A DNA stretch of 64,000 bases from Cytophaga aurantiaca DSM 3654 (GTDB lineage Bacteria > Bacteroidota > Bacteroidia > Cytophagales > Cytophagaceae), in assembly GCF_000379725.1 (NCBI RefSeq), contig NZ_KB903623.1, positions 1-64,000 of the forward strand. Direction: 5' to 3'. Shown piece after piece: positions 32,877-38,400 of this stretch. The notes beneath the pieces were generated by a model that was not told where the DNA came from, did no database searches, and was given only the letters and a program-made list of their open reading frames with translations. The stretch's first letter is position 1; the number at the start of each line of letters is the position of its first letter. Made by a program: the position numbers and the translations under genes.

Positions 32877-33656
32877 ATGCAATTTTTCATACTTCTGATT
32901 ATTATTTTTTCATTTCGAATATTAAAGTATTGCAAAGAAAATGAATATTATTTGTGGGAATATATAACGTTCCGATATTTTGTTCCATTAAATGAGGAAC
33001 GTAGACGTATTCTTGATTTGCAATTTCCCTATTACATAAAAATGAATGAAAAAGATAAGGAGGAATTTAGAAATCGCGTTCAGCATTTTATTACGAATAA
33101 ACGATTTGAATCTGTTGACAATATTGTGATAACTGAAGAGATGAAGGTCATGATTGCTGCTACTGCTGTTCAGATCCTCTTTAAACGGAAAGCATATTAT
33201 CTTTCAAAATTTGATACGATTTTAATTTCTAAAAACTTTCCGGTACAGCTTGATAAACTTCACACAAACAGATCCATTCAAATATCCTGGGACGAATTTG
33301 AACAAGGATATAAATCCTTAACCGATGGTTTTAATCCTGGAATTAAGACGATGGCAATGGCTCTGGATCTGGAGCATCAATTTGGTGAAAATAAATTGTT
33401 TAGCGAATCGACCTACAAAGAATTTAATCGTTTGTATAAACAGGAAGCTGAAAAATATATTTTAAGCGGCAAGTCTAAATACGATAGTTATAGTAAAGTA
33501 GATCGTAGCGAATATTTTGCGGTAGCTGTAGAATATTTCTTTGAGCGTCCCGAACATTTTCAGGCCAATCTGCCTGCCATGTATTTGGCATTGTCTAAGT
33601 TGCTTCGCCAGGATTCACTTGGGATGTATAAGTACAAAGAGAAGTTTTTTAATTAA
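32877..33656 (+). CDS. MtfA-like (M90) protein lacking the HExxH site, copy 1
   Basis: Protein of 259 residues. An N-terminal membrane segment (FFILLIIIFSFRILKYC) is followed by a domain like MtfA: RNRVQHFITNKRFE near the N-terminus, MKVMIAATAVQILF, ISWDEFEQGY and AVAVEYFFERPEHF. In active MtfA peptidases a HEFAH-type zinc motif stands where this protein reads MALDLEHQF, so the first His and the Glu of HExxH are lost. The later motif E-Y-F-A-V is kept. It has a paralogue directly downstream. A non-catalytic binding role is likely, though not proved. Confidence 0.75.
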   Translation: MQFFILLIIIFSFRILKYCKENEYYLWEYITFRYFVPLNEERRRILDLQFPYYIKMNEKDKEEFRNRVQHFITNKRFESVDNIVITEEMKVMIAATAVQILFKRKAYYLSKFDTILISKNFPVQLDKLHTNRSIQISWDEFEQGYKSLTDGFNPGIKTMAMALDLEHQFGENKLFSESTYKEFNRLYKQEAEKYILSGKSKYDSYSKVDRSEYFAVAVEYFFERPEHFQANLPAMYLALSKLLRQDSLGMYKYKEKFFN

Positions 33657-33674
33657 TTGAATTTATTTTATAGA

Positions 33675-34574
33675 ATGATTATGTTACGTTCTTTTATAAC
33701 ATCAATCTTATTGTTTGTAATTAATTTTAGCGTTTCTGCAAGATATTATGGGTATACTCGCGGAGGACGTGATACAAGACATTATCCTACTTATGTATGG
33801 ATAATTGCTCTTCTTTTACCATTTATATTACTCGCTTCTGTGTCGCTCTATCATTATTGCAAAGCGTATGAATATAAACTATTCAAACTGTTTTTATATT
33901 TTGATCCATTGAGTGAAGGACGTCAACAAATTCTTAAAGAAAAGTTTCCATATTATAAAGTATTGAATCAAAATGCCCGACGTGAATTCAGAAAGCGTGT
34001 AAATCATTTTTTGATTAATAAAAAGTTTGTTTCAACGGATGAAATTGAAATTACAGAAGAAATGAAGGTGATGATTGCAGCAACTTCTATACAAATATTG
34101 TTTGGTAGAGAATCGTATTATTTATCCAGTTTCAATACGATCAATATTACAGCTAAAGACGTTACGAATCTAAATACGTTTAGAGAAACAAAACAAATTG
34201 AAATTTGCTGGGAGACATTCTCAGCCGGGTATTCATCAATAACGGATGGATATAATCCCGGATTGAAAATCATGGCTATGGCCTTGAGTTTAGAGTATCA
34301 GTTTAGCCAGAAAGGTATTTTTAACCGCCACACTTTTAAAACATTTGATAAACTGTATAAGCAACAAGCAGAAAAATATATCCAAAGCGGTAAATCAAAA
34401 TACAACGATTATGATCAGGTTGATCGCGATCTGTATTTTGCAGTAGCGGTAGAGTACTTCTTTGAACGCCCGGAACATTTTCATGCCAATCAGCCTGCTA
34501 TGTATTTAGCCTTATCTAAGCTTTTGCGCCAGGATCCATTGGGGATGTATAAGTATGAAGCGAAGTTTTTTTAG
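33675..34574 (+). CDS. MtfA-like (M90) protein lacking the HExxH site, copy 2
   Basis: Paralogue of the preceding gene: the sequences run in parallel (MKVMIAATSIQILF, ICWETFSAGY, AVAVEYFFERPEHF, PAMYLALSKLLRQDPLGMYKY), and this copy has an N-terminal signal-like segment plus a membrane helix (VWIIALLLPFILLASVSLYHYC). The zinc site is again gone (MALSLEYQF). The start at ATG 33675 is preferred over the TTG that immediately follows the previous stop. The two form a tandem duplicate, and the REP cluster starts 17 bp downstream. Confidence 0.75.
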   Translation: MIMLRSFITSILLFVINFSVSARYYGYTRGGRDTRHYPTYVWIIALLLPFILLASVSLYHYCKAYEYKLFKLFLYFDPLSEGRQQILKEKFPYYKVLNQNARREFRKRVNHFLINKKFVSTDEIEITEEMKVMIAATSIQILFGRESYYLSSFNTINITAKDVTNLNTFRETKQIEICWETFSAGYSSITDGYNPGLKIMAMALSLEYQFSQKGIFNRHTFKTFDKLYKQQAEKYIQSGKSKYNDYDQVDRDLYFAVAVEYFFERPEHFHANQPAMYLALSKLLRQDPLGMYKYEAKFF

Positions 34575-34590
34575 GTCGTAGAGTGTTATT

Positions 34591-34635
34591 CTAGGGGCGA
34601 TGCCCCTAGTTTTGATATGTAAGCCTTTCAGGCTT
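34591..34635. repeat. REP palindrome pair, left of the RAYT gene
   Basis: A 19-bp palindrome CTAGGGGCGATGCCCCTAG at 34591-34609 and a second small hairpin AAGCCTTTCAGGCTT at 34621-34635. The same pair in the same order recurs at 35199-35242. Confidence 0.9.
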
Positions 34636-34646
34636 GGTGGTGATTT

Positions 34647-35096
34647 TTATTCCCAGAAAAATACTGAATCATATTCTGTAAGTTGATGTTTTTTCATAAA
34701 GCTTTCAACTTCATCTTTAAAGGAAATAGTTTTATGATGTTCCTTTTGATTTAAGATATAGTTGGAAACCACTTCAATATTTGAGCTGCTTACAGAGAAG
34801 GCTCCATAACCGATTTGCCAGGTGAAGCCATCAATCCCTTTACTTTTCATCCATTTAGATGAATGTTTCTTGATTTCTTCTACGACCTTTACTAAGGTGT
34901 GATTTTTGGATAAACGGAAAAGTATATGAATGTGATCTGGCATAGAATTGATTTTTAGTGCAGGAGATGCATAACTTTTCAGTATCTCAGCAATATATTG
35001 ATGCAATTCCGCTTCAATTGTTTCGGAAATAAAAGGGTATCTGTTTTTAGTTCCGAAGATCAGATGTATATACATCTGCGATAAAGATTGTCCCAT
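34647..35096 (-). CDS. REP-associated tyrosine transposase (IS200-like, RAYT)
   Basis: Single-domain Y1 transposase of 149 residues. The metal-binding His-x-His is in SMPDHIHILF (His55, His57) and the nucleophilic tyrosine in VVSNYILNQKEHH (near residue 113). Length and motif match IS200/IS605-type TnpA and the RAYT group. It is flanked on both sides by the same small palindromes, the configuration of domesticated RAYTs with their REP substrates rather than of a mobile IS with ends. All catalytic residues are present, so it may still be active on REPs. Confidence 0.9.
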   Translation of the reverse strand: MGQSLSQMYIHLIFGTKNRYPFISETIEAELHQYIAEILKSYASPALKINSMPDHIHILFRLSKNHTLVKVVEEIKKHSSKWMKSKGIDGFTWQIGYGAFSVSSSNIEVVSNYILNQKEHHKTISFKDEVESFMKKHQLTEYDSVFFWE

Positions 35097-35142
35097 TTTA
35101 AAAAGTTAGCTGATGAAAATATATTAAACTATGAAAAAAGAA

Positions 35143-35410
35143 AAGGCTGAAAGCCTTACAAATTATAACTAGGGGCAATGCTCCTCGCTTGTCAGATCCT
35201 AGGGGCGATGCCCCTAGTTATGATATGCAAGCCTTACAGGCTAGGTAGTAAAATTAGTATTAATTATTCTATTGTACTGTTAACTTTTATAATGAAATTT
35301 TGCTATGAAAAGACAATCAGGCTGTAAGCCTGAAATAGCATAGCTAGGGGCATCGCCCCTAGGATCTGATGGGCATCGCCCCTAGAAAAGTATATAGGCA
35401 TCGCCCCAAG
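35143..35410. repeat. REP palindrome cluster right of the RAYT gene
   Basis: Contains, in order: AAGGCTGAAAGCCTT (35143-35157), a decayed CTAGGGGCAATGCTCCT (35169-35185), an intact CTAGGGGC/GCCCCTAG palindrome (35199-35217), AGCCTTACAGGCT (35230-35242), an inverted hairpin TCAGGCT/AGCCTGA (35317-35333), an inverted intact palindrome (35344-35362), and two partial copies up to 35410. Units occur in both orientations, as in BIME-type REP clusters. Confidence 0.9.
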
Positions 35411-35427
35411 ATTAAGTAAGTAGCACC

Positions 35428-38400
35428 CTAAAACGCCCGATTCACGCTCAACACCCATCTAAAATCTCCATAATTTTCTCCGGCAGTTGGAGTGTTGATC
35501 CAGAGAGGGAAGTCTGCACGGATTACAAGAGGAGTGATGTCGTACGGAGTAAATTTGATCGTCATTGCAGTGCCTAAGCCTGCATCCATTCTGAAACTAC
35601 TCCAATAATTCTTCGTAACTACTTTATAATTTAAAATCCCTGCATCAAAGAAGCCATACATATCAAAATGAATGTTTTTTGTAAAACCTTTGGGCTTAAT
35701 TTTTATGTATTTATCGAACTCCAATTCCAGATTTACTGAGCCTCCTGTTTGTCCGTTGTATGCATATACAATACTGTCGCCGTTAGAAGAAGAAACTTTT
35801 TCTGTACATACATTTCCTGCATAACCTCGTAGATTCAATCCGCCTCCGTATTGGAAATGATTGGTTGTGTTTTGATAGTTCAGCCAATCAAATGGAATGA
35901 ACCCGATTGCACGTGTGTATTTGTTGTCGATCAGTTGTTCCTGATTTGCACCGGCTGCATATAAAGAACTTTCAAGCGGTACATCATTTAAGCCAAGCTG
36001 CGCGTACGCTCGTGTTTTTAGATCAAGCTTTTTAGTAAGTGCATAATTGTTTTTTGCTTCACCTGTGATCTGAGAATAGTTGTAATCGCTGGCAATGAAT
36101 GGTGCACGAATAGAGATGTTAATTGTTCCGTTGCCTTTTGTATAAACGTATTTTCGCAGAATAGAAATATTGAACGATGCATTCACCCATTGTGTAGATT
36201 GATTTCGAACACCCCATTCCGTTGGATACAACAGATAGGGCTGATAATTATATTCATTTACCAAATACTTCGCAAATACAGAAACCTTTGTATATCGGGG
36301 ATTAGACTGATCTTGTTTCCGGAATGTTTTTTCCAATCCTACAATACCTTTCCAAATGCCCGCATTGTACGCCAATTGTGTATTCGCATACATTTCTCTG
36401 GATACTTTGCTAAGCTGTCTGTTATAGATAGCATTAAAGGCAATGTATTGTGGATTAAGGTCTGTAGAATTTCTTAAGTTCTGGCCTAAAGTAGTGTTGC
36501 CCCACACACTCACATGGTAATTGTACTTGTTGAAATATTTTCCTTCCGCATGAACACCTACTTGCACACCATCAAACCCATTATACCAGATATCCGGTCG
36601 TATATAGTTACGACGGTACTTCCAGCTTTTTGCCTGAGGTACTCTGTGATCAAATTGCCAGGTACTGTTGGTTTTCTTTCCCCATTGATTGTTCGAATTA
36701 TCAGAATCTGCAAGCAGCATTTCCGGATCAATGATCACAGATTTTATTTTTGAATCTGTTTCGAGTACGGTTGTATAAGTTGGTTGAAGCAGATCCCAGC
36801 CATACCATTTAGTTAATACACTGTCTTTTGTTGGTGGCACAAACCATGTATTGGGAATCAAAAATTTCTTTGTTGTGCCATCTTCAAATGTTACAATATA
36901 TTTTAAGGGCATCTGCATTCTGCCAATGCGTTCAAAGGTAAGTTCGTATTTGAAGTGTTGATTGGTTGAAGAAATTTTCTTGACAGATTTTACTTTGTAG
37001 TCTATATTTTTAGAAGTCTCTAACCATTCATCAAAGAACCAGTTTAAGTCTGTTTTGGTGTATTCAATAATTGCATCTCTGAAATCTTCCGGATAGGGAT
37101 GTGCAAATTTCCATTTTTGAACATAATGTTTCATTGCACCAATAAACAGCGAATCACCCAATACATATTTTAAATTGTATAACATGGTTCCGGCTTTGAA
37201 ATAGACCAATCCATAATTACCGCTGTGACGCACAGCTCCATTGAAGGCGCAGGAGTGTGTGTTTAATGGTTCATCAAAATTTTCGGTTACATGATTTAAG
37301 TAAGGTGCGTATAAGTAATCGTTTCTGTTAATTGCAGAATCAAGATATTTTTCGATGAACTTATTGGTATGGGCACGGGCGCGTTTTGCACCCAAGAGCT
37401 TATCCATAGACCACACCGTTAAGAATTGTGTAAATCCTTCGTCCATAAACGCACGGTAGGTTTCATTCGAACCGACCATTCCGTAAAACCACATATGACC
37501 TACTTCATGCGATAGCAGATACTGATGCTGCGGATAGGTACCATTGTCTAAGGTAAGCATGGAGTATTCCATACCATCCTTTGCATCTGCAATGATGATC
37601 TTTGGCCAGTCGTACATGCCAAAATCGGTAGAGTAGGTTTTGATGATCCGTGCTGTGTATTCTCCGGATTGCTGCCATTTCGAAGCACTCTGTTCCTGAG
37701 CAAGTGTGATCACACGTACACCGTTCCATGACGTTTCACCAATGCGGTATAAGGGGTCAGCAGTGAAGGCAAAATTATGTACGTTGTCTGCATGGAAGAT
37801 CCACGTTTTGGTTTTACCTTTTACTTTTGGAATAATAATAGATGGTTGTTCTCCGAATTTTTTGTTTGCAAAGTTTTTAATGTCAAGCTTCGCACGAAGG
37901 GTATCAGGTAAAACTTCTTTTTCATTCATCATTACACCCGTCGCATCCAATATATATTCCTGAGGAAGCGTCAGAGATACATCAAACGTTCCAAAGTCGT
38001 GATAGAATTCTTTGTCCAGATCCTGATCGGTCGTCCATCCGAATTTTTTGTCGTATACACAAATAGAAGGATACCAGAAAACACCATCAAAATGTTTGGT
38101 ATTAAAGGTTTCATAAAACTTCATTCTCCGGCGCATACTGCCATTGTCATAGTACGTAGTGAATTTCATTGTTACAACCAATGAGTCTCCACTGAGCAAA
38201 GGTTTGTTTAAAAATACCTTTAGTATAGTGTTATCTAATTCGATTTTTACAGGTTGTCCGTTGACCTGTATGTTTTCAGTTATTGTACCTAAACCTTCCT
38301 GCTCATACTTGCCATACTTGATCGGTATTTTATTATTCTGATTTAAATTTTCATAATAAGATCCCGGTTGAGCACTATTTTGAAACAGATGGAAATACAA

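Follow-up and report, generated by a model that had tools for sequence, protein, structure and literature searches.

TnpA, a single-copy IS200-type transposase of Cytophaga aurantiaca DSM 3654, probably forms with the repeats around it a REPtron-like system, in which bipartite hairpin units are dispersed and the vertically inherited gene itself stays put. It is very probably tnpA that spreads the two-hairpin repeat family surrounding it. REPtrons, which associate a RAYT (TnpA-REP) with REPs and REPINs, are known from E. coli, Pseudomonas and Stenotrophomonas. REP systems are regarded as having arisen from IS200/IS605 transposons by domestication. In the following, the window is the whole 64,000-nucleotide stretch analysed, on contig C4 of a 4.42 Mb genome. 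G000 designates this genome, G001 and G002 the same-genus genomes, C a contig and L a locus.

The tnpA locus and its enzyme

The frame of the Y1 transposase is unbroken, as a previous sequence-only reading had stated, and matches Y1_Tnp (PF01797) over residues 5-117 (E=3.5e-27). It is surrounded by half-units composed of a first palindrome P1, a spacer and a second palindrome P2 (Table 1). Half-units 1 and 2 bracket the gene in the order P1-P2-tnpA-P2'-P1', and half-units 3 (left) and 4 (right) constitute an inverted pair spanning 164 nt (35199-35362). Half-unit 1 is predicted to fold into two hairpins with a z of -5.8, the value for half-unit 4 being -4.9. The three intact CTAGGGGCGATGCCCCTAG palindromes pointed out in the earlier reading are the P1 of half-units 1, 3 and 4. 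The direct-repeat blocks that it proposed were recovered as a pair of 54 nt with 89% identity (34588-34641 and 35196-35249), and the inverted block as a pair with 86% complementarity (35192-35242 and 35319-35369). The degenerate inverted half-unit 2 and the two partial P1 copies had gone unmentioned. Half-unit 2 is matched by the cross-phylum model R2 presented below (35142-35187, 40.4 bits) and by the repeat model R1 (45.5 bits, in an alignment at 35142-35217 that extends into the next P1), and it also appears as two inverted repeats in a repeat search of the window. With at most two mismatches, the core GGGGCGATGCCCC occurs six times in the window for 0.15 expected, a number reached by none of 100 shuffles. 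Just before the repeat locus, at 32877-34574, lie two adjacent ORFs (259 and 305 aa) whose C-terminal halves look alike by eye and which apparently arose by tandem gene duplication.

Table 1. Features of the tnpA locus, in window positions
Feature	Position	Strand	Description
tnpA	34647..35096	-	Y1 HuH transposase, IS200 type, subclass 1.2 signature, 149 aa
Half-unit 1	34591..34636	+	P1 34591-34609, spacer 34610-34620, P2 34621-34635; R1 69.4 bits
Half-unit 2, degenerate, inverted	35142..35190	-	P2 35143-35157, P1 remnant about 35169-35187
Half-unit 3	35199..35244	+	P1 35199-35217, P2 35229-35243; R1 67.1 bits
Half-unit 4	35317..35362	-	P2 35317-35333, P1 35344-35362; R1 69.1 bits
Partial P1 copy	35369..35387	.	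direct and inverted repeat match; 1 mismatch to core
Partial P1 copy	35394..35412	.	direct and inverted repeat match; 2 mismatches to core

TnpA passes the NCBI IS200 model (65.5 bits, cut-off 55) and fails the NCBIfam RAYT model REP_Tyr_transpos (28.7 bits, cut-off 80). Its HuH and tyrosine catalytic residues are intact within the motifs D54-H55-I56-H57, W93-Q94 and Y113---Q117--H120H121. Across an alignment of 37 sequences D54, H55, H57, W93, Q94, Y113, Q117, H120 and H121 are invariant, and Y---Q--HH is present in 76 of 80 relatives. According to the accessible part of PMC6006769, subclass 1.2 is recognized by DH[IV]H, W-Q and Y---Q--HH, the class 2 RAYTs by Y---NP. Assigned by these signature motifs and by profile scores, TnpA is an IS200-type enzyme of subclass 1.2 and not a RAYT. 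The low intragenomic copy number of the subclass is also found here, where tnpA is accompanied by three divergent genes. The AlphaFold model of TnpA (mean pLDDT 91.8) retrieves ISDra2 as first and IS608 TnpA as second match in the PDB, the REP transposase 4er8 being the last of 30 matches at E<=0.001.

For subclass 1.2, the accessible part of PMC6006769 gives a table entry of 'no' for REP and a median length of 148, and describes members as generally devoid of IS200 terminal structures. The 'no REP' description, which is not a defining trait, does not hold here. In a search of open papers, exclusive of supplements, we did not find REPs described with subclass 1.2. A REP-tool table in PMC12306157 includes Flavobacterium and other Bacteroidota genomes, and the accessible part of this source contains neither 'RAYT' nor 'transposase'; hairpin repeats of Bacteroidota have so been counted before, with no enzyme assigned in that part.

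The two-hairpin unit and its dispersal in the genus

In the half-unit, P1 measures 19 nt (8-bp stem, 3-nt loop) and is followed, after a spacer of 11 nt, by P2 of 15 nt (6-bp stem, loop mainly T[TA]C). Across 24 copies from this genome, pairing holds in 97.5% of cells and both sides have changed in 31 cells, values which both lie beyond all 500 shuffles. These copies were selected by the exact P1 core, so that pairing of P1 is partly built in and P2 offers the freer test: there 94.6% is paired and three of seven pairs display both-sided change. The covariation score of the own-genome family is 0.232 against 0.055 when shuffled, and none of 500 shuffles reaches it. Spacer and foot were counted in the 63 best-scoring half-units of 103 matches from the three genus genomes. 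The spacer consensus is approximately YTNTGATATGT, with T at position 2 in all 63, T at position 9 in 62 and A at position 8 in 58, and the GT[AG]G expected at the hairpin foot of a classical REP is present in a single one of these 63. No conserved sequence was found outside P1 in own-genome copies. A three-hairpin unit P3-P1-P2 was considered for this genome and rejected, nothing being conserved beyond P1.

The 13-mer core occurs at 27 exact places in the genome and at none in the read-backwards control. R1 yields 44 matches at E<=1, of which 34, on 12 contigs, have at least 35 bits; four of the latter lie in the window and 30 outside, in 21 groups. The 21 dispersed groups are all located outside called ORFs, compared with about 9% of random 60-mers of the window (binomial p 1e-22, the baseline being simple ORF calls in the window, with the convergent share of only 659 bp left aside). 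Six dispersed inverted pairs of 106-111 nt (e.g. C35:132365-132474 and C44:112576-112685) resemble REPINs. The family thus combines what generally defines REPs and REPINs: a short palindrome, many copies, intergenic location and inverted pairs. Its copy number is low in comparison with the REPs of E. coli K12, roughly six hundred according to the accessible part of PMC8266576. The sequence-only reading depended on the presence of the palindrome elsewhere in the genome, which is clear for the 13-mer core and narrow for the exact CTAGGGGCGATGCCCCTAG 19-mer, with three of its four genomic copies in the window and one on C44 (core at 112579). That reading had also raised the position of the copies at gene ends. 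Their intergenic location is general, and 19 of the 21 groups are downstream of at least one gene, a proportion close to that of random intergenic placements in the window (1395/1801, 77%).

This downstream position would also suit immobile elements that are retained as transcription terminators or for mRNA stability and among which tnpA landed, and four terminator-like sites were indeed counted in 34400-35500 (shuffle mean 0.8), three of them being P1 or P2. We nevertheless judge this explanation very improbable: random placements are downstream of genes nearly as often, termination would not require a 46-nt unit in which two hairpins stand at a constant distance and the spacer is conserved, and both the clustering of the units around tnpA and their cross-phylum co-occurrence with it (see below) would be left unexplained. 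A secondary role of the hairpins in expression is possible.

The outer stem of P1 distinguishes two main subtypes. Their count draws on 73 of the 103 matches and sets aside copies whose core is changed. Here, all three gene-adjoining copies whose P1 core is intact are CTA/TAG, whereas most dispersed copies carry the compensated CTT/AAG (21 CTT/AAG against one CTA/TAG among intact-core copies of the two types; Fisher p=0.0017); the set-aside changed-core copy L023:1373 is CTA/TAG too. With intact cores, the P1 adjoining the gene is likewise CTA/TAG in 5/5 in G001 and 2/3 in G002. Dispersed CTT/AAG and CTA/TAG copies number 7 and 0 in G002, 2 and 13 in G001, where five of the 13 belong to one tandem array. 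The dispersed set so differs from the gene-adjoining copies in G000 and G002, not in G001. Given this mismatch, the copies next to tnpA do not suggest themselves as templates for the units now dispersed, even if one enzyme serves both. The idea of a self-contained source of a REP family is weakened to that extent: the REP-like family is dispersed in the genome, but the gene-adjoining copies are no evident origin for it. In G001, repeat copies of locus L205 (C57:114322-118010) are spaced by 913, 910, 910 and 910 bp; this is a tandem segmental array with one half-unit per period.

Another Y1 gene serving the CTT/AAG copies was a candidate that we rejected. The genome contains four class-2-type matches (Y---NP), at C24:134011, C44:128302, C2:107873 and, broken, C3:65394, and no P1-like core lies within about 1.5 kb of them. 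The same result counts against a classical class 2 RAYT with GTAG-footed REPs. The REPtron-like layout, the intergenic repeats and the inverted pairs would fit such a system, but the failed RAYT model, the motif Y---Q--HH in place of Y---NP (signatures as in the accessible part of PMC6006769) and the near absence of the GT[AG]G foot contradict it, and we find it hardly credible. What stands of the initial proposal of a RAYT with its REPs is a Y1 transposase within a dispersed, intergenic REP-like family; membership of the RAYT family does not.

By TnpA, the nearest named relative is an uncultured Cytophaga (L032, 70% identity). Of the genomes of 59 relatives searched with R1, none but the three genus genomes has the repeat in multiple copies (38, 31 and 19 matches at E<=0.01); two others have 2 and 1 weak matches. 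Only the same three encode a TnpA of at least 70% identity. In all three, tnpA is bracketed by a gene of 156 aa and a large gene, which we take from its motif to be peptidase-like; in the window, as many as four additional ORFs lie in the interval. As in REPtrons, the Y1 gene is flanked by copies of the repeat family at the three loci. Each genome has one full tnpA copy, and no near-identical second one was found. In G002 (L192, C1:1667178-1668035), a second, C-terminal-only copy of tnpA (residues 81-148) abuts the P1 of the next unit; it is a local duplication at the repeat locus. G001 carries a shorter extra C-terminal fragment whose junction falls inside the P1-P2 spacer. Both fragments hint at local rearrangement at the repeats.

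These observations bear on the alternative of an ordinary IS200-type insertion sequence, in which the hairpins would be the ends and the dispersed copies MITE-like internal deletion derivatives of a transposed whole element. The IS200 profile score and a fold closest to the ISDra2 and IS608 transposases speak in its favour, as do the inverted pair that encloses the gene here and in G002 and the additional fragment adjoining the gene in G002. However, a single full copy per genus genome, between the same two neighbours in three species, is not the behavior of a multi-copy IS, and in 12 of 14 loci the gene lies outside the paired unit (see below). We therefore consider this alternative unlikely, and favour a stationary gene that would disperse the units.

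The repeats occupy the same intergenic interval in two to three species in several cases (e.g. L023/L193/L207, L006/L194, L001/L209 and L027/L213), so that much of their spread is old. The L016 REPIN follows a gene end here; G001 and G002 lack it at the corresponding gene end, where the DNA has diverged and junctions are inexact. The matching stretches L267-L270 of these genomes contain no P1-like core. Neither movement nor a precise empty site was observed; the intergenic DNA of the congeners is too diverged for alignment of junctions.

Related enzymes in this genome and in other phyla

Three further subclass 1.2 genes of this genome, L029 (C12), L030 (C9) and L031 (C44), are 38-42% identical to tnpA, and each is flanked by hairpin pairs, read by eye. 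Every one of the four genes of subclass 1.2 found here is therefore flanked by hairpin repeats, and such repeats are also dispersed. A degenerate pattern drawn from the spacer motif common to the three loci has 71 sites and none in the control; the C9 type accounts for 37 of them, the C12 and C44 types, not separated, for 33, and one is of another type. As the pattern derives from the flanks of these genes and ten sites lie within 500 bp of them, the remaining 61 represent the actual test. The C44-type palindrome occurs at 13 places (control 0).

Hairpins common to both flanks of the gene were sought in 77 usable relatives, three of 80 having been dropped for short frames. A common stem of at least 6 bp was found in 26 of 77 loci, compared with 3.6% of mismatched flank pairs, and a common 8-bp stem in nine, compared with 0.2%; in the other 51 loci this two-sided test failed. 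Among 58 loci with long flanks, which are not phylogenetically independent, a common stem is present beside the gene in 17 and at 1.6-2.1 kb in none, these far flanks being probably mostly coding and poorer in hairpins (0.9 per locus against 4.2 near the gene). Units of eight lineages keep the organization P1-spacer-P2, with nine of 14 pairs changed on both sides, which none of 500 shuffles reaches; as the units were chosen by a hairpin scan, pairing itself is partly built in. At L033, L036, L037 and L043 a third hairpin P3 is seen by eye about 20 nt outside P1, so that the flanks of tnpA read P3-P1-P2 in several phyla.

The cross-phylum model R2 was built from the units of the eight lineages. 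L043, whose shorter spacer misaligned, was left out and L046 was retained with its P1 off by one column. For 32 of the 80 named loci the genome was searched; of these tnpA-bearing genomes, 22 have R2 matches and ten have none. Bacteroides sp. 519 has 33 matches and Rhodohalobacter 36, 32 of the 34 listed being on contigs other than that of the L039 gene. In G059 and G060 all matches listed (4 of 5 and 5 of 6) are on the tnpA contig. In Rhodohalobacter G065, a 75-nt unit at about 1500-1575 of L247 reads P1-spacer-P2-spacer'-P1', two P1 sharing one P2; further hairpins flank it outside, and the genome has several overlapping plus/minus pairs of R2 matches at the same offset.

Among the 59 relatives' genomes, eight have R2 matches. 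Counts of five or more are limited to the genus genomes and G033, which was outside model training and has 21 copies with a TnpA of 45% identity. At a TnpA threshold of 125 bits, chosen after the table was seen, matches occur in 5/7 genomes above against 3/52 others (Fisher 2e-4) and at least five copies in 4/7 against 0/52 (Fisher 8e-5). Without the genus the co-occurrence is weak (2/4 against 3/52, p=0.036). The genome search returned no R2 match for G018 and G051 despite their good TnpA match, and a local search at the G051 locus gave two weak matches of 17 and 21 bits.

The local search covered 100 of 109 tnpA-bearing loci (L183-L191 left out) and gave 104 matches. Where the locus belongs neither to the genus nor to the training set (18 loci), 32 of 39 matches lie within 300 bp of tnpA, for 22% expected. 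The nearest match on the low side of the gene is on the minus strand in 19 loci and on the plus strand in three; on the high side it is plus in 16 and minus in five. Restricted to matches of 40 nt or more, these ratios become 16:3 and 15:2. Thus P1 mostly adjoins the gene, the opposite order, P2 adjoining, being that of G002 and, by coordinates, of the window. P1 adjoins the gene on both sides in 12 of the 14 loci with two-sided matches of at least 40 nt, so the gene there is outside the paired unit, not inside.

It is somewhat more plausible than its converse that all of subclass 1.2 represents a separate REP-dispersing lineage, apart from the class 2 RAYTs, with fixed low-copy IS200-type genes, bipartite GTAG-less double-hairpin repeats and co-evolution of each gene with its own repeat. 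On this reading the lineage would extend over Bacteroidota, Balneolota, Kapaibacteria, Poribacteria and others.

Comparison with known systems and proposed mechanism

With REPtrons, the system shares a single-copy Y1 gene ringed by hairpin repeats which are dispersed between genes, partly as inverted pairs. Unlike theirs, which is of class 2 (Y---NP), its enzyme belongs to class 1.2 (Y---Q--HH), and its repeats lack the GT[AG]G foot and consist each of two hairpins with a conserved 11-nt spacer. With IS200/IS605 members such as IS608 and ISDra2 it has in common the predicted fold, the catalytic residues and a hairpin-flanked gene; in contrast to them, no multi-copy transposon was found, the gene is syntenic in three species and the dispersed repeats are gene-less. 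TnpA corresponds to subclass 1.2 as described in the accessible part of PMC6006769 by its 149 aa (median 148), DHIH, WQ, Y---Q--HH and low copy number, but departs from that description in the hairpin repeats that flank the gene and are dispersed. TIRtrons (TIRYT) also comprise Y1 genes between inverted repeats, some double-palindromic and some dispersed as dimers, according to the accessible part of PMC3733652; their enzymes are presented there as RAYT-like, in other signature groups, the comparison being one of descriptions only.

From these features we infer binding by TnpA, a cleavage site, and mobilisation with its direction. The P1-spacer-P2 unit, made single-stranded on the lagging strand for instance, would fold into two hairpins to which TnpA would bind. 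Tyr113, with His55 and His57, may then cleave near the outer foot of P1 or inside the conserved spacer; TnpA-REP enzymes cleave at CT or CA dinucleotides near their repeats, as stated in the accessible part of PMC8266576. Strand transfer would occasionally reinsert the element, and over time units would have been dispersed to intergenic sites, also as inverted, REPIN-like pairs of about 110 nt.

Accompanied by dispersed repeats that resemble REPs, this class-1 (IS200-type) enzyme would constitute a second and differently organised case for comparison with the class 2 RAYTs. How such enzymes choose their cleavage sites can be tested directly on its two-hairpin unit, which lacks the GTAG foot. 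The published 'no REP' entry for subclass 1.2 is corrected, and a usable model becomes available for annotating such repeats.
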